Shown here: piece after piece, positions 1-54,330 of the stretch | How the letters are laid out: every line of letters begins with the position of its first letter | Numbering within the stretch: the first letter of the stretch is position 1 | Source of the DNA: Olivibacter jilunii | GTDB taxonomy: Bacteria > Bacteroidota > Bacteroidia > Sphingobacteriales > Sphingobacteriaceae | Direction of reading: 5' to 3' | NCBI RefSeq assembly: GCF_900607235.1 | Contig: NZ_LR027848.1 | Coordinates: forward strand, 485,241 to 549,240 | DNA: 64,000 nucleotides | The notes under the pieces: generated by a model | What the model was told of the DNA's origin: nothing | The model's database searches: none | Seen by the model: only the letters and a program-made list of their open reading frames with translations | Translations under genes and position numbers: made by a program

Positions 1-957
1 TTTCTTCTCAGGATAATCGTTATAGAATGCAGGTATATCTTTTATCCCTTCTAAATTAGCGGTTGTAATACGCACAACCGTATCCTCCTTCACCTTATAA
101 AGGTAGGCAGCTGTAGCACCCTGTTCTTCTCCAACCTTGTTTCTAGTCTGTATGTCTTCCGTATAACCGGATTCAGTTACATAGTTTGGTACGATCGTAT
201 TCCGATTATCTTTCGCAGGACTATATTTTATATAGGCAATATATTGCAAATTAGGGCTAGCAGCAATTGTTCTAACAATTTCATTTTCTGCTATAGGCAG
301 CTCTCTCAGCAGTTTTATCCTTTGCAGTTCTTCTAACGAATCAGCTCGGTGTTTTTTCTGTTTACGATCGTTGAGCACGTCGAATAAAGTCAATTGATTT
401 TCTTTAAGCCATTGATTTTGATCGGAGAGTTTAGGGGCGTCACCCTTCTTTTTGCTTCCCTTAACAAAATTGGTAAGCTGTTTTAATTCGCCATTTATCA
501 AGGAGAGGCTGTATAAATTATTTTCACGTTTAAAGAAAACAACGTCTTCACGCACATTAAATTGAGGCTTAGACTCTTCCTCGATCGTCGCCGTCAATTG
601 TTTTTCGCTGCGTGTTTTTAAATCATATATAAAAATATCACCACCCTTTACATATACCGCTCGATTTCCACTTCGATTGTATTGCGTTTGTTGTGTAAAA
701 CTTCGCGTCACATCCTCCTCTTGTCTTTTAGGCTCTTGATCACGCACCGTTATACTGTATAAGGGTGAATAATCCAGATTTTCCGGATTCCATCTAAAAT
801 AGATGTGCCCATCAAATTCTCCCCACCTAATATTTTCGGGCGACACGCCCATCCACTTAGGGTCGCGCATTATTTTTTCAACTGTTAAGTTAGTCTTTTG
901 TTGTGCCCATACGGGATTGAAATAGGTTAAGATGATAAAAAGTAATATTCTCTTCAT
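1..957 (-). CDS. S9 family peptidase, DPP-IV-like N-terminal part (truncated by window edge)
   Basis: An open frame of 319 codons runs from an ATG at 957-955 to the window edge without a stop. It begins with a signal peptide (MKRILLFIILTYFNPVWAQ), so the product is exported. The rest looks like the beta-propeller half of a dipeptidyl-peptidase IV/prolyl oligopeptidase: short repeats with WGEFDGHIYFRWNP, a tail of propeller-blade phrases such as DIFIYDLKTRSEKQLT and LYSLSLINGELKQLT, and ISPDG-like strands. The catalytic alpha/beta-hydrolase half would lie beyond position 1 and is not visible. It follows frr on the same strand, separated by frr's terminator, so it is probably transcribed on its own. 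Assignment to the S9 family is likely; the exact specificity is open. Confidence 0.72.
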   Translation of the reverse strand, partial: MKRILLFIILTYFNPVWAQQKTNLTVEKIMRDPKWMGVSPENIRWGEFDGHIYFRWNPENLDYSPLYSITVRDQEPKRQEEDVTRSFTQQTQYNRSGNRAVYVKGGDIFIYDLKTRSEKQLTATIEEESKPQFNVREDVVFFKRENNLYSLSLINGELKQLTNFVKGSKKKGDAPKLSDQNQWLKENQLTLFDVLNDRKQKKHRADSLEELQRIKLLRELPIAENEIVRTIAASPNLQYIAYIKYSPAKDNRNTIVPNYVTESGYTEDIQTRNKVGEEQGATAAYLYKVKEDTVVRITTANLEGIKDIPAFYNDYPEKK

Positions 958-1078
958 ACGATGTAAACTTTGGTCTAAAAATACAAGCAATTTGTGATGG
1001 AAATGCGCTATTTGCGCAACAATTTAGTGGGTTAGTAAAGTTGTCGAATCGTCGAGTGGTTAACGGCAGCTACGAACA

Positions 1079-1108
1079 AAAAAACCACGGTGCGATCCGT
1101 GGTTTTTT
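1079..1108 (-). terminator. Rho-independent terminator after frr
   Basis: A 12-bp perfect stem, AAAAAACCACGG (1079-1090) with CCGTGGTTTTTT (1097-1108), and a 6-nt loop. It lies 20 nt past the frr stop on the minus strand. The A/T runs at both ends would let it work in either direction. Confidence 0.8.
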
Positions 1109-1128
1109 CACTAATAATTTCAATTTCC

Positions 1129-1692
1129 TTAAACGGTCATAATATCTTTTTCTTTGGCTTCGGCTAATTTGTCAACTTTCGCGATAAAGTTATCGGTTAA
1201 TTTTTGAACTTCACCTTCTCCCACCTTTATTTCATCTTCCGAGACACCATCATTTTTAAGCTTTTTAATTCCGTCATTAGCGTCCTTTCTGATGTTGCGA
1301 ATAGCGACCTTTCCTTTTTCTGCCTCCTCCTTTACTTTTCTAACCAATTCCCTACGGCGCTCTTCGGTCAAAGGAGGAACCGCTAAACGGATAATATTAC
1401 CGTCATTTTGTGGGTTTAATCCGATATTGGAATCAATAATAGCCCTTTCAATTGCACTTAATAAATTCTTTTCCCATGGTTGAATAACCAAGCTACGAGG
1501 GTCGGGCGTATTAATGTTTCCCACTTGAGATAATGGAGTAGGTGTTCCGTAGTAATCTACATTGATCCCGTCCAACATGGAAGGCATTGCTTTACCTGCG
1601 CGAATTTTTGTCAATTCTGATTCGGTATGCGAAATAGCTTTCTGCATGGAATCATTAGCGTCTTCTAACTGTAACTTTATTAGGTCATTCAT
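1129..1692 (-). CDS. frr: Ribosome recycling factor
   Basis: 187 aa, the usual RRF length. It splits post-termination ribosomes together with EF-G in the cytoplasm. Family hallmarks are visible: an N-terminal helix with SHTESELTKIRAGKAMP, then VDYYGTPTPLSQV and the domain II strand region, then IRLAVPPLTEERRRELVRKVK and the long C-terminal helix ending AEAKEKDIMTV. The ATG at 1692 gives the standard N terminus. In many bacteria frr follows pyrH; here the upstream 700 bp hold no gene, so frr has its own promoter, for which a good -7/-33 candidate sits at 1776-1806. A terminator follows at 1079-1108. Confidence 0.97.
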   Translation of the reverse strand: MNDLIKLQLEDANDSMQKAISHTESELTKIRAGKAMPSMLDGINVDYYGTPTPLSQVGNINTPDPRSLVIQPWEKNLLSAIERAIIDSNIGLNPQNDGNIIRLAVPPLTEERRRELVRKVKEEAEKGKVAIRNIRKDANDGIKKLKNDGVSEDEIKVGEGEVQKLTDNFIAKVDKLAEAKEKDIMTV

Positions 1693-1775
1693 ATGAATAC
1701 AATATTTTCTAAGGCTATAAGAAATAATTAAATGCTTATAACGATGAATATTTCATGCTATTGCAAAGATTTGCC

Positions 1776-1806
1776 CAAAAATAAGATTTTTTATTCAATG
1801 GCAAAA
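1776..1806 (-). promoter_or_regulatory. Candidate Bacteroidota-type promoter for frr
   Basis: On the minus strand TATTTTTG (1783-1776) fits the -7 consensus TAnnTTTG exactly and TTTTG (1806-1802) stands 18 nt upstream as the -33 element. The predicted start would give an untranslated leader of about 75 nt before the frr ATG. Assigned by consensus only. Confidence 0.45.
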
Positions 1807-1932
1807 CACCACAGAAAAGGGGCTGAAGTACCTGATCCATTTTAAAATAACTTTTTTTACCTTTGAAAGGTATCACGACCTCATTTCAATACACTAATCC
1901 TTCCCTTTCAGATTTTTTCAATTTTTGAATCT

Positions 1933-1987
1933 ACGTCAAGTCCACGTGAAGTCCACCTTTATTCCACGTCAGATCCACCTATTCTTC
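1933..1987. repeat. 11-bp tandem repeat cluster A
   Basis: Consecutive 11-nt units start at 1933, 1944, 1955, 1966 and 1977: ACGTCAAGTCC, ACGTGAAGTCC, ACCTTTATTCC, ACGTCAGATCC, ACCTATTCTTC. Units 1, 2 and 4 are close copies; 3 and 5 share only the ends. One unit is about one turn of DNA. Confidence 0.7.
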
Positions 1988-2026
1988 TGTATACATTCGC
2001 TACCTATTTATGTTTTCCTGCTTTTC

Positions 2027-2059
2027 TATAGAGCGGATATAGTGCGAATATAGCGGCAA
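2027..2059. repeat. 11-bp tandem repeat cluster B
   Basis: Three consecutive 11-nt units TATAGAGCGGA, TATAGTGCGAA and TATAGCGGCAA. The unit sequence differs from cluster A 40 bp away but the period is the same. Confidence 0.65.
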
Positions 2060-2262
2060 CAACTACCTTACTGCATGTTAAGTGCCCTCTTGCAAGCCAA
2101 GCAGGCAGCAGTCAATACATACGGCCGGTTAAATACGGCTGCCTCATAAGGTTTTACTTGTTTTGTTCCACGAGAAACAATCGGATAAGTTGTTAGCAAT
2201 AAGCTTGAAGCTTTGAGATGAGCCTGTGCTACCGCCACCGTTATTAATCATTCGGCGCTTCA

Positions 2263-2280
2263 GCCTACTGGTAGGCAGGC
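2263..2280. repeat. Dispersed palindromic repeat, copy 1
   Basis: GCCTACTGGTAGGC (2263-2276) is a near-perfect palindrome and contains the core GGTAGGCAGG (2270-2279) found again at 5176-5185 and 12360-12369, always in intergenic DNA. Confidence 0.6.
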
Positions 2281-2371
2281 CTAATTCATCATTAAAAGTT
2301 ACTTAAAACGTCCAACTAATAATACGCATTCGTATGCGAATTGCTAAAATCTAAAAAATATTAAAATTCTC

Positions 2372-2403
2372 TTGATAAATTAAAAATAAACCATTTACTT
2401 TAC
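2372..2403 (+). promoter_or_regulatory. Candidate promoter of the thr leader/operon
   Basis: TTG (2372-2374) and TACTTTAC (2396-2403, one mismatch to TAnnTTTG) are separated by 21 nt. They lie just upstream of the leader peptide ATG at 2418, which would leave a very short 5' leader. Consensus match only. Confidence 0.35.
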
Positions 2404-2417
2404 TGCCAATTACAAAA

Positions 2418-2489
2418 ATGAAAGCAATTATATCTATTACAACATCCACAACGATTACCACCGGGATAGCAAAACACCGAGGGAAGTAA
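2418..2489 (+). CDS. thrL: thr operon leader peptide (Thr/Ile-rich)
   Basis: A 23-codon ORF starting MKAIISITTSTTITTGIA. It holds six Thr codons and five Ile codons, with eleven of residues 4-17 being Thr or Ile. It ends at 2489, 32 nt before a terminator hairpin and 97 nt before thrA. In composition and position it copies E. coli ThrL (ITTTITITT core), the leader peptide whose translation senses charged Thr- and Ile-tRNA. The match to E. coli is by function, since a Bacteroidota leader is not expected to be homologous. Too short for ordinary gene callers. Confidence rests on the Thr/Ile run, the ATG, the following RNA hairpins and the nature of the downstream operon. Confidence 0.85.
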   Translation: MKAIISITTSTTITTGIAKHRGK

Positions 2490-2560
2490 TCTTTATGTTG
2501 TAATAACAGCGATAAAACATAAAAGGCGCTTCTCTCGATGAGAAAGCGCCTTTCTTATTT
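2435..2560 (+). promoter_or_regulatory. Threonine attenuator: alternative hairpins and terminator
   Basis: The terminator stem is AAAGGCGCTT (2522-2531) with AAGCGCCTTT (2544-2553), followed by CTTATTT. An upstream 11-bp stem pairs 2435-2445, inside the Thr codons, with 2495-2505 (ATTACAACAT with ATGTTGTAAT). A competing stem pairs TTTATGTT (2492-2499) with AACATAAA (2516-2523) and takes away the last bases of the first stem and the base of the terminator. A ribosome stalled on Thr/Ile codons would block the first stem and favour the second. The overlap with the terminator is only about 2 bp, so the antiterminator part is less certain than the leader and terminator. Confidence 0.7.
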
Positions 2561-2586
2561 AATGACTTTAAGGATAAATAGAAAAA

Positions 2587-5034
2587 ATGAAGATACTTAA
2601 GTTTGGAGGTACCTCAGTCGGATCGGCCGAAAGCATTAATGCATTATTGGACATCCTAAAACAAGGGTATGAACAGGGCGAAAAGCCAATTGTTGTCTTA
2701 TCGGCCATGAGCGGAATTACAAACCTCCTTACCAAAATGGCTGAAGAAGCAGAACAAGGAATCAGCTTCGGCCCTGCTTTAAAGGAATTGGAATCGAGAC
2801 ACTTCACAGTTGTTAAGCAACTCATTCAAATTAAGAATCAGAATCCTGTTTTTACGCAACTTAAAATTTACTTAAATGAACTTGAGGATCTTTTACAAGG
2901 TGTATTAAATCTGCGGGAGCTGAGTTCACAAAGCAAGGATCTCATTGTGAGTTACGGTGAGCGTTGTTCCGCATTTTTGGTCTCTAAGATTGCGGCTCAG
3001 TACTTCCCGGAGAGTTTATTCGTCGAAGCCAGCTCCCTTATAAAAACCGATAGCAATTTTGGTAACGCACGGGTAGATTTACAACAAAGCGAATTACTCA
3101 TCCGTCAGTTCGTGCAAGAAAATCCAGGCAAATTTTTATTTGTAACCGGCTTTATCGCTTCTAATGTCAATGGTCGGATTACTACCCTGGGAAGAGGAGG
3201 TAGTGACTATACAGCTGCTATTTTCGGTGCCGCATTACAGGCGGAAGCTATCGAAATATGGACCGATGTGGATGGTATGTTAACGGCAGATCCACGCATG
3301 GTAAAAAAAGCGTTTCCTTTACCGATTTTATCGTATACCGAGGCAATGGAGCTATCTTATTTTGGAGCGAAGGTGATCTACCCACCAACCATGATCCCCG
3401 CCTTCATGAAAAAGGTGCCTATTGTGATCCGCAATACATTTAATCCAAGCTTTCCAGGTACTATTATCCAATATGATAGCGGCAGAACATCTTATCCTAT
3501 TAAAGGTATCTCCTCGATTAATGCCATTAGCGTTATCAATGTAAGCGGCAGTGGCATGATCGGCAAGGCCGGCTTTAGCGGTCGCTTATTCTCCTTGCTA
3601 GCGCATGAACAAATAAACATTGTGCTGATCACCCAGTCATCGTCCGAACATAGCATCACGTTTGCTGTTCATCCCGCAGATGCCTTAAGAGCCAAACATC
3701 TTATTGAAACTGAATTTGAACTGGAGCTGCTTGCAAAAAAATTAGAGCCCCCCGTCATAGAAAATGAATTATCGGTACTTGCTATCGTGGGTGAAAACAT
3801 GAAACAAACCCCCGGCATGTCAGGCAGGTTATTCCATGCTTTGGGACGCAATGGTATTAATGTACGGGCTATTGCGCAAGGCTCATCGGAATACAACATT
3901 TCGGTTATTATTAGCCAAGCAGATCTGTCCAAAGCGCTGAATGCGGTACATGATGCTTTCTTTACAGCATTAAAGAAAACCTTACATGTTTTTAATCTTG
4001 GAACCGGCAATATCGGATCTACTTTGTTTAGGCAATTATTAGAACAGGAAGCTTTTCTGCGCGACAACAATGATATCCAGGTAAAGGTTGTCGGCATGAG
4101 TAATTCCCGCAAAATGTTATTTGATGTGGAAGGCATCTCATTGACCTCCTGGCAGACGGAATTGGACAGCAAAGGAGAAACTGCTTGCTTGGAGACCTTT
4201 ATTAGCAGAATGCAACAATTAAATCTACCTAATTGTATATTTGTGGACAATACCGCAAGCGAGGAACCTACCAAGCACTATCTTAAAATCTTTGAATCGA
4301 ATATATCGGTAGTGACCTGCAACAAAATTGCTAATTCCTCGAGCTACGCACAGTATAAACAATTACGCGATACGGCCAGAAGGCACGGCGTCGACTTTTT
4401 CTATGAGACGAATGTGGGCGCAGGTCTTCCGATTGTCCGCACGCTGAAAGACCTGATGACCAGTGGTGATCGTATTATCCGTATTGAGGCTATACTTTCG
4501 GGTACTATCTCTTATATTTTTAATAATTTCATTGGCGATGCTTCATTTCACGATGTAGTGAAGAAAGCCCAGGCCTTAGGCTATACGGAACCCGATCCTA
4601 GGGATGATTTACGAGGTACTGATTTTATGCGTAAGATGCTCATTTTGGCACGGGATAGCGGTTTAGCCATCGAAGCCAAGGACGTCGATCTAGGAGCGAT
4701 TCTACCCAAAACCTGTTTAGATGCAGCGAGTGTTGAGGACTTTTACTTAGAACTGCAAAAGGAAGCGGCTTACTTCGATACGCTTAAAGAAAAAGCTCAA
4801 CGGGAGAACCGAGCGATTCGTTATATCGGAAAATTGGAGGATGGAAAGGTATCCATTGCCTTGGAGCTGGTGGATGAAAAGCATCCCTTCTTCAACCTCT
4901 CGGGTAGCGATAACGTCATTTCATTCACTACTGAACGTTATAAAGAACGACCGTTAGTAGTAAAAGGACCGGGTGCCGGTAGTGAAGTCACGGCGGGCGG
5001 GGTATTTGCTGATTTGATGAACGCGGGAGCATAA
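2587..5034 (+). CDS. thrA: Bifunctional aspartokinase I / homoserine dehydrogenase I
   Basis: 815 aa, the normal length for the fused enzyme. It phosphorylates aspartate and, two steps later, reduces aspartate semialdehyde to homoserine. The N-terminal kinase shows KFGGTSVG (residues 5-12) and TLGRGGSDYTA. A tandem ACT regulatory region follows (GKAGFSGRLFSLLAHEQIN and a second copy, TPGMSGRLFHALGRNGINV), the expected site of threonine feedback. The dehydrogenase starts near residue 460 with the NAD(P) fold NLGTGNIGSTL and contains ILSGTISYIFNNF and GYTEPDPRDDLRGTDFMRK. It is first in thrA-thrB-thrC, behind the attenuator. The asd gene for the intervening step is not in the window. Confidence 0.97.
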   Translation: MKILKFGGTSVGSAESINALLDILKQGYEQGEKPIVVLSAMSGITNLLTKMAEEAEQGISFGPALKELESRHFTVVKQLIQIKNQNPVFTQLKIYLNELEDLLQGVLNLRELSSQSKDLIVSYGERCSAFLVSKIAAQYFPESLFVEASSLIKTDSNFGNARVDLQQSELLIRQFVQENPGKFLFVTGFIASNVNGRITTLGRGGSDYTAAIFGAALQAEAIEIWTDVDGMLTADPRMVKKAFPLPILSYTEAMELSYFGAKVIYPPTMIPAFMKKVPIVIRNTFNPSFPGTIIQYDSGRTSYPIKGISSINAISVINVSGSGMIGKAGFSGRLFSLLAHEQINIVLITQSSSEHSITFAVHPADALRAKHLIETEFELELLAKKLEPPVIENELSVLAIVGENMKQTPGMSGRLFHALGRNGINVRAIAQGSSEYNISVIISQADLSKALNAVHDAFFTALKKTLHVFNLGTGNIGSTLFRQLLEQEAFLRDNNDIQVKVVGMSNSRKMLFDVEGISLTSWQTELDSKGETACLETFISRMQQLNLPNCIFVDNTASEEPTKHYLKIFESNISVVTCNKIANSSSYAQYKQLRDTARRHGVDFFYETNVGAGLPIVRTLKDLMTSGDRIIRIEAILSGTISYIFNNFIGDASFHDVVKKAQALGYTEPDPRDDLRGTDFMRKMLILARDSGLAIEAKDVDLGAILPKTCLDAASVEDFYLELQKEAAYFDTLKEKAQRENRAIRYIGKLEDGKVSIALELVDEKHPFFNLSGSDNVISFTTERYKERPLVVKGPGAGSEVTAGGVFADLMNAGA

Positions 5035-5166
5035 ATTACATGTGATAATTAGCTAATGTGAAAATGAGCCTATGAAAGGTTATAGCCAAATTACACTCAA
5101 TGTACGTAATGCGAAATCGACCACTGAGACAAGATTTGCGTCTAACGACGGTAGGTCTTTTTACTT

Positions 5167-5185
5167 CCTGCCTGCGGTAGGCAGG
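5167..5185. repeat. Dispersed palindromic repeat, copy 2
   Basis: CCTGCCTGCGGTAGGCAGG has complementary ends (CCTGCCT/AGGCAGG) and the shared core GGTAGGCAGG. It lies in the 181-bp thrA-thrB gap and could form a hairpin in the operon mRNA. Confidence 0.6.
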
Positions 5186-5215
5186 TTTACTTTTGAATTT
5201 TTACTTATCTAATAA

Positions 5216-6193
5216 ATGGAATTAACAACAGAAAAAGAACCCGCTGGTAAGGCCCGAAAAGAAAAAGACCGCGTGCATGTGTTTGCACCGGCTACCGTGG
5301 CTAACCTGGTATGCGGCTTTGATATCTTGGGACTAGCCCTGGACGAACCGGGAGATGAGGTGATTATGGAACGCTCGGACCGGCCTGGCGTTAAACTGTT
5401 AAAGATTACGGGCGATGACGGCCGATTACCGCTCGATCCGGCAAAGAATACGGTTAGCGCTTGTGTTCAGATGTTACTAAAGCATTTAAACCGTGAAGAT
5501 GTGGGAGTGGAAATAGAGTTGCATAAACACATGCCTATCGGAAGTGGATTAGGATCCAGTGCTGCGAGTACGGTAGCTGGTTTATTCGCTATTAATCAGC
5601 TGCTTGGACAACCTTTAACGAAACAAGAATTGCTTCCTTTTGCGATGAAAGGCGAAGAATTGGCCTGTGGGCACGGGCACGCGGATAATGTAGCCCCTTC
5701 TTTATTTGGTGGTATTACCTTGATTAAAAGTTACGAGCCACTGGAAGTCGTGTCAATACCTGTTCCAAAAAGCTTATACTGCTCCGTAGTGTTTCCCCAC
5801 GTAGATGTGCCAACGCGTGCTGCTCGGCAGATGATTCGTTCTAAAATCGAGCTGAAAGATGCGGTGGTTCAATGGGGCAATATTGCGGGCTTGGTAAGTG
5901 GTCTGTTTATGAGCGATTATGGCTTAATCGGTCGCAGTATGCAGGATGTCCTGATTGAACCTGTTCGTGCTATTCTGATTCCTGAATTTTATGAAATGCG
6001 ACAAACTGCCATGGCAGCAGGAGCACTTGGGTTTGGCATCTCCGGCTCTGGACCCTCTGTCTTTGCCTTTGCCGATAACCATCCAACCGCATCGGACATC
6101 ACCCGGCAAATTGTACAGCATCTGCAATCGAAAGGTATTGATAGCAACGGCTACGTTTCGGCAGTAAATCAACAGGGGCCGAGGGAGTTATAG
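5216..6193 (+). CDS. thrB: Homoserine kinase
   Basis: 325 aa GHMP-family kinase that phosphorylates homoserine to O-phosphohomoserine. The ATP-binding motif PIGSGLGSSAASTVAG lies near residue 110 and the C-terminal glycine-rich loop GFGISGSGPSVFAFAD near residue 275. The N terminus (VHVFAPATVANLVCGFDILGLAL) is typical. The charged extension TEKEPAGKARKEKDR before it is not conserved in the family, so the functional protein may begin slightly later, but ATG 5216 is the only ATG there. It stands 181 bp after thrA and 109 bp before thrC on the same strand, a looser spacing than in E. coli. Confidence 0.95.
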   Translation: MELTTEKEPAGKARKEKDRVHVFAPATVANLVCGFDILGLALDEPGDEVIMERSDRPGVKLLKITGDDGRLPLDPAKNTVSACVQMLLKHLNREDVGVEIELHKHMPIGSGLGSSAASTVAGLFAINQLLGQPLTKQELLPFAMKGEELACGHGHADNVAPSLFGGITLIKSYEPLEVVSIPVPKSLYCSVVFPHVDVPTRAARQMIRSKIELKDAVVQWGNIAGLVSGLFMSDYGLIGRSMQDVLIEPVRAILIPEFYEMRQTAMAAGALGFGISGSGPSVFAFADNHPTASDITRQIVQHLQSKGIDSNGYVSAVNQQGPREL

Positions 6194-6240
6194 TTTCGTT
6201 ATTAGTTACTCGTTAATAGTTATTGGATTTAACTATACTA

Positions 6241-6291
6241 CCAATAACTAACAACCAGATAATTAACAACAAACAACCAATAACTAACAAC
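6241..6291. repeat. Direct repeat CCAATAACTAACAAC in thrB-thrC gap
   Basis: Two copies (6241-6255 and 6277-6291) are separated by AT-rich variants of the same words; a complementary GTTAATAGTTATTGG lies at 6212-6226, so a hairpin is possible. The gap is low-complexity and has no gene. Confidence 0.5.
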
Positions 6292-6302
6292 AAACAACCA
6301 TC

Positions 6303-7616
6303 ATGAAACTATACAGTACTAATAATAAAAAGCTAAGAGTTTCTTTTAAAGAAGCCGTATTTAACAGTTTGCCTTCAGATAAGGGGCTTTATATGCCTAC
6401 CGAGATCCCTTCGCTTTCTGCGGATTTTATTAATAATCTTGAGCAGTTTACTTTACCCGATATCGCTTTTGAAGTGGCTCACCACTTAATTGGCGACAGC
6501 ATTCCGGCCAATGATCTCCGATTATTAGTGGATGATGCTATCAATTTTGAAGCACCTGTAGTATCACTTGACGACCGTACGGCAGTACTAGAGCTTTTTC
6601 ACGGACCATCCCTTGCCTTTAAAGATTTCGGTGCCCGATTTATGAGTCGCGTTATGGGTTATTTTTCTAAAACCGAGGAAAACAGCAAGCTTTTAGATGT
6701 ATTGGTAGCCACTTCGGGAGACACGGGAGGAGCCGTGGCTTTAGGTTTTCTAGGTGTAGAAGGCACTCGGGTAACCATTTTATATCCTAAGGGTAAAGTA
6801 AGCCCTATTCAAGAGCAACAGCTGACCCGTAACGGCCAGAATATTCGAGCCATTGAGGTCGATGGCTCCTTTGACGACTGCCAGGCTTTGGTAAAAGAGG
6901 CGTTCAATGATGCTGAACTTAATCAACGGTTCCGATTAACATCTGCCAACTCGATTAATATAGCCCGTTTGATTCCACAGACCTTTTATTACTTCAATGC
7001 CTATGCGCAAATGAAGAGAAAAGGAATAACTGATATCGTTTTTTCTGTTCCCAGCGGAAACTTCGGTAATATTGGCGCTGGCTTATTAGCCTATAAAATG
7101 GGTTTACCTGTTAGGCAGTTTTTAGCTGCTACTAACGTGAATGATACGGTTCCACGTTTCCTATCAGACGGCTACTATGAACCGCGCCCCTCAATAGCCA
7201 CCCTATCTAACGCAATGGATGTAGGCAATCCAAGCAACTGGGTTCGCATTATGGATCTTTTTGAAGACGATCGCGCGTTATTGAAAGAAACGGTAACAGC
7301 TTACGCGTATAGCGACGAGGAGACCCGCAGTGCTATTGACGAGCTTTATAGCAGCTATCAATATCTTGCCTGCCCACACACCGCCATCGCTTACTTAGCA
7401 GGGCAAGCTTATAAAAAAGAGCAAGGTGGAAACTATACAACTATATTTTTATCAACTGCACACCCATGCAAGTTTCCCGATGTATTTTCTGAAGAAAAAC
7501 AGAAAGCCATCTTCATACCTGAACAAGTAAAAGAATTGGAAAGTAAACCCAGCCAAAAAGAGGAACTTGGAGCTGATTACGAAGCTTTTAAGCAGTGGCT
7601 GCAGGAAGAGTTATAA
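6303..7616 (+). CDS. thrC: Threonine synthase
   Basis: 437 aa PLP enzyme that converts O-phosphohomoserine to threonine and phosphate, the last step of the pathway. The PLP lysine lies in PSLAFKDFGARFM; ATSGDTGGAVALGF and SVPSGNFGNIGAGL are the phosphate-binding loops of fold type II, and STAHPCKFPDVF is the C-terminal family signature. The N-terminal YSTNNKKLRVSFKEAV matches the class of shorter bacterial synthases. Third gene of the thr operon. It converges with metG, and a long inverted repeat lies in the 62-bp gap. Confidence 0.96.
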   Translation: MKLYSTNNKKLRVSFKEAVFNSLPSDKGLYMPTEIPSLSADFINNLEQFTLPDIAFEVAHHLIGDSIPANDLRLLVDDAINFEAPVVSLDDRTAVLELFHGPSLAFKDFGARFMSRVMGYFSKTEENSKLLDVLVATSGDTGGAVALGFLGVEGTRVTILYPKGKVSPIQEQQLTRNGQNIRAIEVDGSFDDCQALVKEAFNDAELNQRFRLTSANSINIARLIPQTFYYFNAYAQMKRKGITDIVFSVPSGNFGNIGAGLLAYKMGLPVRQFLAATNVNDTVPRFLSDGYYEPRPSIATLSNAMDVGNPSNWVRIMDLFEDDRALLKETVTAYAYSDEETRSAIDELYSSYQYLACPHTAIAYLAGQAYKKEQGGNYTTIFLSTAHPCKFPDVFSEEKQKAIFIPEQVKELESKPSQKEELGADYEAFKQWLQEEL

Positions 7617-7619
7617 GTG

Positions 7620-7669
7620 ATAAGTTATACGTTGTAAGTTTAGGGTTAGCCTTATAACGTATAACTTAT
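7620..7669. terminator. Long inverted repeat between convergent thrC and metG
   Basis: ATAAGTTATACGTTGTAAG (7620-7638) pairs with CTTATAACGTATAACTTAT (7651-7669) with a single mismatch and a 12-nt loop. It is AT-rich and lacks a clean U tract. It may end transcription from both sides or simply separate the two mRNAs. Confidence 0.5.
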
Positions 7670-7678
7670 AACATAAAA

Positions 7679-9745
7679 CTACCTAACAACGCTTCCTGGT
7701 TGGATATTTGATTGCGGCGCCACGAAATCAAGGCGTCCATCGGCATCCTCGGCCATCAAGATCATCCCTTGTGAGAGAATGCCTTTGATTTCCCGCGGTT
7801 CTAAATTGACTAATATAGAAACTTGTCTTCCAATAATATCTTCAGGATTAAAGAATTCCGCAATGCCTGATACTACCGTGCGTTGATCAATTCCTGTATC
7901 AATTGTCAACTTCAGCAACTTCTTTGTCTTCGCCACCTTTTCGGCTGTTAAGATTTTGCCGACGCGAATGTCGAGGAGTGTAAATTGATCAAAGGCAATG
8001 TTCGCCTTCGCCGGCTCCGCGGTGCTTGTTTGCGTTTTTGCGTTGTCGACCTTAGCCTGTGCTAATTTGGCTAGCTGCGCATCGATTTGTTCGTCCGCTA
8101 TTTTTTCAAAAAGCAATTGTACCTCGCCCAATTGATGATCGTTTTCCAACAAATTAGGATTACCGGCAGCCGTCCAATCCCGATCCTGAAAATTTAACAT
8201 CTGGAATAGCTTTTCTGCCGTATGCGGTAAAAAAGGCTGCGCCAATACCGCCAAATTAGCGGCAATCTGCAAACCGATATTAAGCACTGTTTTCACGCGG
8301 TCTTCATCCGTCTTGATTAATTTCCAAGGCTCCTCATCGGCTAAATATTTATTCCCTAAACGCGCCACATTCATAAAATGCGCCAGGGCTTCTCGAAACC
8401 GATATTGACTTAGCGAAGAACTAATGGTTTTAGGATAACGCTCCAACTCGGAGAGCACTAATTTATCTTTATCGCTAAGCTCGCCCCCAGCCTTCACTTT
8501 ACCATCAAAGTATTTATGAGATAAGACCAGTACACGGTTGATAAAATTACCGAATATGGCTACTAATTCATTATTCACACGTGCTTGAAAATCCTTCCAG
8601 GTAAACTCACTATCCGATGTTTCCGGCAAAATAGAGGTCAAAACATAACGTAGCTCGTCTTGCTTACCCGGAAAATCAGCCAAGTACTCGTGCAACCATA
8701 CCGCATGGTTTCTAGAAGTTGACAACTTATCTCCTTCTAAATTCAAAAATTCGTTTGCAGGAATATTTTCCGGCAAAACATATTCACCATGTGCATGCAA
8801 AATAGAAGGAAATATAATGCAGTGGAAGACAATATTATCCTTCCCAATAAAATGTATCAAGCAGGCGTCATCCGCTGGATTTTCCTGCTTCTTCCAGTAT
8901 TTTTCCCAGTCTTTCCCGGTATCTAAGGCCCATTGCTTCGTAGCTGATATATAGCCTATAGGCGCATCTAACCAAACGTATAACTTTTTTCCCTTTGCTT
9001 CTTCTAAAGGAACATCCACTCCCCAATCCAAATCACGGGTCATGGATCGTGCTTGCAGACCGGATTTTAACCAAGAGCTGCATTGACCATATACATTTGA
9101 TTTTAAAATATCCTTTTTACCTTCCAATAACCATTTTTCCAGCCAAGCTTGATATTTATCTAAAGGCAAATACCAGTGTTTGGTTTCACGAAGTACAGGT
9201 GTTTTACCACTTAAGGTCGATTTTGGATTGATTAAATCCGTTGGGCTCAAGGAGGTTCCGCATTTTTCGCATTGGTCACCATAAGCTCCTTCGTTATGGC
9301 AATTCGGACAGGTCCCTACAATGTAGCGATCGGCCAAAAATTGATGATATTCTTCGTCGTAATACTGCTCTGAGTATTTCTCCACAAACTCCCCTTTATC
9401 ATAGAGGTTGAGGAAGAATTCTTGCGAAAGCTCGTGATGAATTTTGGAAGAGGTACGATGATAGATATCGAAAGAAATGCCGAACTGTTCAAAACTCTCT
9501 TTTATCTGTGCATTATACTTGTCGATTATTTCTTGAGGCGTAATCCCTTCTTTTTTGGCTTTTATAGTAATTGCAGCCCCATGCTCATCCGAACCACAGA
9601 CAAAAGCCACCTCTTTGTTGTTCATCCGCAAAAAGCGCACGAAGATATCGGCAGGAATATAGGCTCCGGCGAGGTGACCGATATGTAAAGGCCCATTGGC
9701 ATACGGCAGGGCAGAAGTGATGGTATAACGTTTAAAATCTTTCAT
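7679..9745 (-). CDS. metG: Methionyl-tRNA synthetase with C-terminal tRNA-binding domain
   Basis: 688 aa class I synthetase that charges initiator and elongator tRNA-Met. HIGH is at residues 21-24 ([11 protein letters not shown]). A zinc knuckle [18 protein letters not shown] lies near 145-162, the KMSKS equivalent is KLSTSR near 336, and the anticodon-binding helical domain follows. The last ~110 residues ([20 protein letters not shown] ... LSQGMILMA) are an EMAP-II/Trbp111 OB fold that also dimerises the enzyme. Between them is a linker rich in A, K and Q. The gene stands alone on the minus strand; 5' of it lie AT-rich repeated words with no clear promoter. Confidence 0.98.
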
Positions 9746-9901
9746 TTTGTTGTAACAAGTTGTACGTGTTAAGTTGTACGTTTTAAGCAGTAGATAGTAC
9801 TTATTACTTACAACTTATCACTTATAACGCGAGCGCTTTTTTCAAAAATGATTTGTTAATTCGGCAAAGATACATCAATTTGCACTTCATAATAAACAGA
9901 T

Positions 9902-10810
9902 ATGAAGAAAACACCTCCTTATTTAAAAAAAGGTGACAAGGTGGGTATTGTATGCCCGGCATGGAAGGTAGATAATGATTTGGAAGACGCTATAGCGCTC
10001 TTAAAATCGTGGGATCTTGACGTTGTGGTCGGTAAAACCGTTCACAGCAGCTACCGGCAGTATGCGGGCAGCGATGAACTGCGGGCACAGGACTTCCAAT
10101 CCATGCTCGATAACGACGAAATAAAAGCTGTCTTTGCAGCGAGAGGTGGCTATGGCTGTGTGCGGATGATTGATTTAGTGAATTTCTCACATTTTGTTGC
10201 AAAGCCCAAATGGATTATCGGATTCAGTGATGTGACTGTTATTCATAGCCATATTCACAGAAATTTTGGAATCCCAACCATACATGGGCAAATGCCTATT
10301 ACCATTCCTGATGCTACCAAGGAATCATTGCTCAGCTTAAAGGATACGCTTTTTGGTGAAATGCCGTCATACGAATATCAAAGTGAACATACGAATATCC
10401 CGGGTGAAGGTGAAGGCGTCGTGATTGGAGGTAACTTGGCTCTACTGGTTAACGTACTGGGCTCGGTTTCCGACATGGACTATGATGGAAAAATTTTGTT
10501 TATTGAAGATGTGGGAGAGTTCTATTATTCCATCGACCGAATGTTGTGGACTTTGAAACGAGCAGGAAAACTAAAAAATTTGAAAGGTCTTTTGGTAGGT
10601 GGCTTCACCAACTTAAAAGATAATAAAGTACCCTTTGGAATCACGCTAGAAGAGCTGATTTTGGAAATCGTAGGCGAATACGGTTATCCGGTTGCCTTTG
10701 ACTTTCCGGCAGGACACATTGATAATAACTACACCTTAATTTTTGGTGCGCAAGCTAGTTTAAGTGTCAATGAGCACCATGTATGTTTGGCTTATATAGA
10801 TGAGCAGTAG
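9902..10810 (+). CDS. LD-carboxypeptidase (S66 family)
   Basis: 302 aa, the usual size for S66 enzymes such as LdcA, which removes the terminal D-Ala from tetrapeptides during murein recycling. The nucleophile-elbow region reads GFSDVTVIHSH, the glutamate of the triad is expected in FIEDVGEFYYSIDRML and the histidine in PAGHIDNNYTLIFGA, and GYGCVRMIDL is the substrate-side loop. No signal peptide is seen (MKKTPPYLKKGDKVGIVCPA), which agrees with a cytoplasmic enzyme. It is divergent from metG and may share an upstream region with it. Family assignment is firm; the exact peptide substrate is not shown. Confidence 0.93.
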   Translation: MKKTPPYLKKGDKVGIVCPAWKVDNDLEDAIALLKSWDLDVVVGKTVHSSYRQYAGSDELRAQDFQSMLDNDEIKAVFAARGGYGCVRMIDLVNFSHFVAKPKWIIGFSDVTVIHSHIHRNFGIPTIHGQMPITIPDATKESLLSLKDTLFGEMPSYEYQSEHTNIPGEGEGVVIGGNLALLVNVLGSVSDMDYDGKILFIEDVGEFYYSIDRMLWTLKRAGKLKNLKGLLVGGFTNLKDNKVPFGITLEELILEIVGEYGYPVAFDFPAGHIDNNYTLIFGAQASLSVNEHHVCLAYIDEQ

Positions 10811-54219: not shown

Positions 54220-54228
54220 AAACAAAAG

Positions 54229-54306
54229 CTTTAGGGGTGTCCCATTATTGGGGCTGAGAGTTACCCTCACAACCTGCTCAGGATAATGCCTGCGAAGGGA
54301 AAAGTA
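54229..54306 (+). promoter_or_regulatory. TPP riboswitch (THI element)
   Basis: The conserved aptamer strings are GGGGTG (54234-54239), CTGAGAGTTACCC, AACCTG and CAGGATAATGCCTGCGAAGGGA (54279-54300). P1 ends read CTTT/AAAG. It senses thiamine pyrophosphate and lies directly in front of thiS. The downstream platform holds a hairpin covering the thiS start (54331-54374) rather than a terminator, which suggests control of translation. Confidence 0.95.
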
Positions 54307-54330
54307 GACAAGTCTTCTCATACCGTTCCG

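Follow-up and report, generated by a model that had tools for sequence, protein, structure and literature searches.

A probable Thr/Ile leader-peptide attenuator upstream of thrABC in Olivibacter jilunii and related Sphingobacteriaceae

The threonine operon thrABC of Olivibacter jilunii is very probably preceded by a ribosome-mediated transcription attenuator, in which the end of a Thr/Ile-rich leader ORF can pair with the 5′ arm of an intrinsic terminator. We computed the parts of this element, their conservation and their alternative folds in and around a 64,000-nucleotide stretch of DNA (the window), and from these we infer leader translation, ribosome stalling, termination and a response to Thr or Ile. 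The element represents a known mechanism in a scarcely documented place, and it is confirmed at the scale of the family with an antiterminator that differs from the one first proposed. The features of the window are as follows.

2372-2402, + strand: likely promoter, with TTG at −33 (2372-2374), a 20-nt spacer and the −7-like element TTACTTTA (2395-2402)
2418-2489, + strand: leader peptide ORF MKAIISITTSTTITTGIAKHRGK with its stop codon, 23 codons, six Thr and five Ile
2435-2445 with 2495-2505, + strand: protector stem A:A′, 11 bp, predicted by folding
2453-2459 and 2462-2464 with 2477-2479, 2482-2483 and 2487-2491, + strand: inner protector hairpin B:B′, predicted by folding
2478-2537, + strand: predicted antiterminator, outer stem 2478-2487/2528-2537 and apical stem 2492-2499/2516-2523
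2522-2553, + strand: intrinsic terminator hairpin, from folding and conservation, with a moderately T-rich tail at 2554-2561
2587-5034, + strand: thrA, fused aspartokinase I/homoserine dehydrogenase (NF006959, 1021.8 bits against a cut-off of 726)
5216-6193, + strand: thrB, homoserine kinase
6303-7616, + strand: thrC, threonine synthase

Leader ORF, promoter and operon

The leader ORF, the hairpin, thrA, thrB and thrC follow one another in this order on the + strand. The initial annotation of this DNA had placed a fused thrA downstream of the leader in a Bacteroidota genome, in agreement with the NF006959 score, which is well over the cut-off, and with the ThrA sequence, which is 87% identical to that of Olivibacter domesticus (Sphingobacteriaceae), the closest named relative among the matches listed. 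The upstream neighbour, frr, lies on the − strand, and hence no + strand gene found upstream needs a terminator at this position. No tRNA genes were found in window positions 1-10000.

Conservation was assessed at 85 loci, comprising 80 from named records (chosen as the best among at least 575 confirmed ThrA), four from the genus and the window's own. Most of them bear Sphingobacteriaceae genus names, and four (L018, L034, L046 and L063) are labelled just bacterium, Bacteroidetes or Sphingobacteriales. Counts over 83 loci leave out L009 and L010, which duplicate L006 and L008.

The 23-codon ORF with its six Thr and five Ile codons, as described in the initial annotation, is indeed present at 2418-2489, and it constitutes a short leader ORF rich in codons for the amino acid of the pathway. 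Among the 1700 frames of 15-40 amino acids screened in the window (812 on the + strand and 888 on the − strand, nested starts counted apart), it is the sole one with at least 11 Thr and Ile residues making up at least 45% of the peptide. A short Thr/Ile-rich ORF precedes thrA at all 85 related loci, the window included, where the densest ORF with at least seven Thr and Ile residues was kept at each locus and the minimum observed was eight. When the last Thr of the run is taken as an anchor, the preceding residue is Thr in 75 of 83 leaders and the next residue is Gly in 68 of 83; Thr-Gly is absent from the final 14 residues in 10 of the 85. The Thr codons vary synonymously among the leaders (ACC 231, ACA 199, ACT 60, ACG 33), and the exchange of Thr and Ile codons for synonyms suggests that the peptide is under selection.

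A promoter-like pattern lies directly 5′ of the leader, and transcription would start near 2407-2410. The pattern TTG-N17-23-[TA][TA]NCTTT[AGC], which was shaped after viewing these sequences, occurs no more than 75 nt upstream of the leader ATG at 54 of 83 loci, against a shuffled mean of 0.5 and a maximum of 3, and its distance to the leader is 8-38 nt. The strict TAnnTTTG box, taken from PMC9723704, was rejected as a descriptor, being present at merely 10 of 83 loci (shuffled mean 4.1, maximum 8), and the looser pattern was therefore counted instead.

Terminator, antiterminator and protector stems

The GC-rich terminator reported 3′ of the leader ORF is borne out as an intrinsic terminator between the leader and the first structural gene. 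A terminator-like hairpin with at least four T in the following eight bases is found, like the Thr/Ile leader, at 85 of 85 loci, so that the lack of conservation in close relatives by which the initial annotation would have been refuted is not observed, and 82 of 83 loci pass a stricter terminator test. The terminator is the only structure that RNAalifold found on a MAFFT alignment, with double changes at seven of its nine pairs. With the register that most rows share (+3 slide), 88.6% of its cells are paired, and 70 double-change cells are counted there, a raw number taken without a shuffle control. Furthermore, the 158-nt leader region as a whole folds at −37.8 kcal/mol, compared with −21.3 ± 3.4 kcal/mol for 200 shuffles, none of which is as good (z −4.9).

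In the window, folding with and without the leader covered gives two different states. The free full-length RNA folds as the protector stems plus the terminator. When a ribosome on the late Thr codons is mimicked by folding 2472-2565, the antiterminator is the minimum free energy structure (−26.7 kcal/mol), joining the outer stem and 2492-2499/2516-2523 in a single hairpin, and when a ribosome at the stop codon is mimicked by folding 2503-2565, the terminator forms. The outer stem pairs the leader end and the first base of the stop codon (2478-2487) with the terminator 5′ arm (2528-2537). With the leader masked and transcription stopped short of the terminator 3′ arm, it forms at 83 of 83 distinct loci, and it exceeds the mean of 100 one-arm shuffles at all 83, with p ≤ 0.05 at 71. 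In alignment A1 (82 distinct rows), 86.7% of outer-stem cells are paired, compared with 53.0-73.0% after slides of 1-3 columns.

Covariation gives a mixed picture of the compensatory stem changes that had been proposed as a check. The outer stem contains 24 double-change cells against a shuffled mean of 8.7. The two counts that relatedness inflates least, those of double-change pairs and of pair types, are not above shuffles (equalled or exceeded by 425 and 396 of 500, respectively); support for the outer stem therefore rests on cells and complementarity. In a cross-genus swap test, the own pairing of the outer arms is better at 60 of 83 loci overall and no better in Parapedobacter, Sphingobacterium and Pedobacter, whose arms hardly vary. 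In Olivibacter, both outer arms differ together from those of other genera (own pairing −15.1, swapped −9.8). Coordinated change of the outer arm is thus seen by cells and in Olivibacter, and not by double-change pairs or pair types. By folding and complementarity, the antiterminator and the terminator are mutually exclusive.

The two overlapping stems listed in the initial annotation, 2435-2445/2495-2505 (11 bp) and 2492-2499/2516-2523 (8 bp), are both perfect complements where they had been placed; the arm that competes with the terminator, 2478-2487/2528-2537, was absent from that list. Indeed, 2492-2499/2516-2523 shares merely 2522-2523 with the terminator hairpin, an overlap of two positions, and alone it would hardly prevent termination. 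We therefore rejected it as the entire antiterminator, the competition coming from the outer stem. This apical stem reaches p ≤ 0.05 at 4 of 83 loci and is better than its swap at 51 of 83, and its 40.6% of paired cells is an unreliable figure because the alignment is poor there.

The protector stems A:A′ and B:B′ are weakly supported by comparative evidence. The own pairing of A:A′ is better than the cross-genus swap at 72 of 83 loci and better than the shuffle mean at 77 of 83, with p ≤ 0.05 at 30 of 83 and 60.6% of cells paired. B:B′, whose span (2453-2491) contains the late Ile-Thr-Thr codons and the leader stop, reaches p ≤ 0.05 at 12 of 83 loci, its own pairing surpasses the swap at 50 of 83, and its pair counts are hardly above shuffles. 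In free RNA that reaches only as far as the terminator loop, the antiterminator is already the minimum at 64 of 83 loci, the window included, and the fate of an untranslated leader would therefore depend on folding order.

In the mechanism that we propose, RNA polymerase would start about 10 nt before the leader ORF and a ribosome would translate the leader. Under a shortage of Thr-tRNA, and perhaps of Ile-tRNA, it would stall on the Thr/Ile run and open the protector stems; the freed 2478-2487 would then pair with the terminator arm 2528-2537, in a hairpin whose apical half is 2492-2499/2516-2523, and once this antiterminator had formed transcription would continue into thrA. When Thr is plentiful, the ribosome would presumably reach the stop codon at 2487-2489 and cover the leader end, and the terminator at 2522-2553 would form. 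The conserved leader and hairpin, the promoter-like pattern and the changes in the outer arm support the earlier reading of the element as ribosome-mediated attenuation.

Two other explanations use the same parts. The short ORF might be incidental, or encode a functional small protein, with the hairpin acting as a constitutive partial terminator, which would fit the only moderate T-richness of the tail 3′ of the hairpin. This is very unlikely in view of the Thr/Ile leader that persists at 85 of 85 loci through synonymous codon change, the lack of a second such frame in the window, the promoter-like pattern directly 5′ of the leader (54 of 83 loci), the position of frr on the opposite strand and the complementarity between the leader end and the terminator arm. 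The leader might instead act mainly on the translation of thrA or on RNA stability, as could be argued from the Thr leaders before thrA in other families, which are mostly without a terminator (8 of 44 pass the test). For the window's family we regard this as highly improbable, since 82 of 83 loci pass the terminator test and the pairing partner of the leader end is the terminator 5′ arm itself. Transcription attenuation is thus the reading that we retain.

In the family's leader ends (for example GGAGGAAG in Mucilaginibacter), the antiterminator arm looks like a Shine-Dalgarno sequence and could be mistaken for a ribosome binding site. According to PMC9723704, Shine-Dalgarno sequences are absent from flavobacteria.

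Relation to known leader RNAs

The element shares with E. coli thrL a Thr/Ile-rich leader, a leader end that pairs with the terminator 5′ arm (−23.4 kcal/mol in E. coli) and a fused thrA as the next gene. In E. coli, too, thrA precedes thrB and thrC. The window differs from the E. coli system by its extra apical antiterminator stem and its Bacteroidota-like promoter. The two systems form a clear pair for weighing inheritance of the thrL design against a second, separate origin.

Neither of the two Rfam families closest in kind reaches its gathering cut-off here: RF00506 (Thr_leader) gives 20.3 bits in the window against 55 (E 0.097), and RF01692 (Bacteroid-trp) gives 21.1 bits at the thrA leader against 49 (E 4.3). 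Like Bacteroid-trp, the window element is a leader-peptide RNA of Bacteroidota; unlike it, the leader carries Thr and Ile and no Trp. By cut-off, the window attenuator is in neither family, yet it would function as members of both do. The terminator might instead be governed by a T-box or a metabolite-binding riboswitch, as an amino acid operon with a terminator in its 5′ region could bring to mind; this is barely credible and was rejected, as no Rfam family matches 2360-2600 at its gathering score, although a family that Rfam lacks would escape such a search. At gathering score, the window contains a single Rfam match, a TPP riboswitch (RF00059) at 54223-54317, with 67.6 bits.

In the window's own genome, a Trp leader, MNTTFAHINWWWHEG with its stop codon, was observed at L245:1521-1568 together with a terminator-like hairpin, and the ORF 3′ of it looks, by eye, like trpD. 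Bacteroid-trp has one copy above the cut-off in this genome (49.6 against 49 bits).

A covariance model of the thr leader matched 69 of 296 Bacteroidota genomes at E ≤ 0.01. The eight best matches are all from the window's family, the window's genome included, and some of them probably served to train the model; many of the weak hits cover only the terminator part. No clear second copy of the element was found in the window's genome, where the thrA leader scores E 9.7e-15 and the next hit, covering model positions 77-142 only, scores 0.011.

Leader-peptide attenuation had been described in the initial annotation as much less documented in Bacteroidota than in Proteobacteria, a fair statement, and one that does not make it undescribed, given the RF01692 trp leader and the clues in PMC9723704. 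According to that paper, there are clues to leader-peptide attenuation in Flavobacterium psychrophilum, and those leaders resemble the present one in belonging to Bacteroidota, to amino acid operons and to structured 5′ regions; neither threonine nor thrA occurs in its main text, though its Table S7 may include thrA. Short ORFs reminiscent of leader peptides appear for B. thetaiotaomicron in PMC7366714, and the trp leader is mentioned in PMC6414381. The sole literature match for threonine, leader peptide, Flavobacter and thrA combined, PMC10308929, concerns rhodopsins. The titles and passages obtained from open full-text searches contain no description of a thr leader in Bacteroidota. The 2004 attenuation survey by Vitreschak and colleagues (FEMS Microbiol Lett 234:357) reportedly names thr as one of its operons and Bacteroidetes/Chlorobi as one of the groups in which it has candidate attenuators, and it may already contain a Bacteroidetes thr site of this kind.

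Thr and Ile leaders elsewhere in Bacteroidota

Looking beyond the window's family, we examined 170 sites upstream of thrA, of which 110 come from the 115 places of a phylum search over 138 genomes and 60 are additional. The 110 sites include five from the same family and several second thrA copies, and of the additional 60, family f4 supplied 51 and a class search nine. Five of the 115 places, one f4 place near a contig end and seven further places were left out, and one site whose upstream region is misplaced, the start not being where expected (L138), is counted as a miss. At 45 of the 170 sites there is a Thr-rich ORF with a small GC hairpin at its end, compared with 0 of 170 on the reverse strand. 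One of them (L243) was judged spurious and dropped, giving 44 second-type sites: L136, in which the hairpin lies about 108 nt before thrA, L147, L151, L179, L256, L273 and 38 others. Alternative rules give 19 against 0 on the reverse strand among the 110 sites (five of the 19 being same-family), 16 against 0 of 110, 29 against 2 of the 60, and 21 against 1 of 170.

The second-type hairpin has the form ACCCC-NNN-GGGGT and variants of it. It holds the last leader codons or the stop, the stop codon lying within its loop or immediately 3′ of it. A TATAT..TCC-like stretch often comes next, and then a second hairpin whose sequence varies. A loose TAT..TC motif lies downstream in 28 of 44 sites (an uncontrolled count), the best second hairpin has p ≤ 0.05 at 20 of 44 (median p 0.07), and 8 of 44 pass the terminator test. 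None of seven second-type loci scanned matches Rfam at the gathering score. By family, the window's family has the E. coli-like terminator/antiterminator, and f2, f3, f4, f8, f23 and f62 have the small-hairpin type; in f12, f13, f17, f28 and other such families, the majority of sites show no Thr leader.

It is possible, if short of probable, that Bacteroidota control thrA through two unlike Thr-leader architectures, the second being an undescribed leader-peptide class that is perhaps Rho-dependent or translational. The C/G ratio is 1.86 in the 44 second-type upstream regions and 1.07 in 121 others; within the 60-site set the contrast shrinks to 1.82 against 1.48, and a C-rich stretch as a Rho signal is therefore weak. 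The terminator-poor second architecture is the more novel lead and the one most worth following.

At L130/L110, upstream of thrA in G011, a leader mixing Thr, Ile and Met codons was observed (MTTIMSIMGDVQSWR), the end of which complements the terminator arm by eye. The Met codons could be a further signal.

Among its stronger hits in other Bacteroidota families, the thr covariance model also picked up Ile-rich leader ORFs, some with Val, which are accompanied by terminator-like hairpins and lie upstream of ilv-like genes. They lie near position 1501 at L098-L105, L115 and L116 (on the other strand at L099, L100, L104, L105 and L115) and near position 104 at L097, and the genes 3′ of them look like ilvE, ilvA and ilvD, judged by eye from their first residues. 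Together, the thr attenuator at 85 of 85 loci and these Ile-rich leaders suggest that ribosome-stalling attenuation is established in Bacteroidota. For Olivibacter, no clear ilv leader was seen by eye before nine ilvD-family loci. A stretch beginning AGCTATTGCC is common to the regions before ilvD in four Olivibacter genomes (L155-L158), and in it, without a clear terminator, a short Ile/Val-containing peptide (IAIA.VIISYYFG) is readable by eye at three of the loci.
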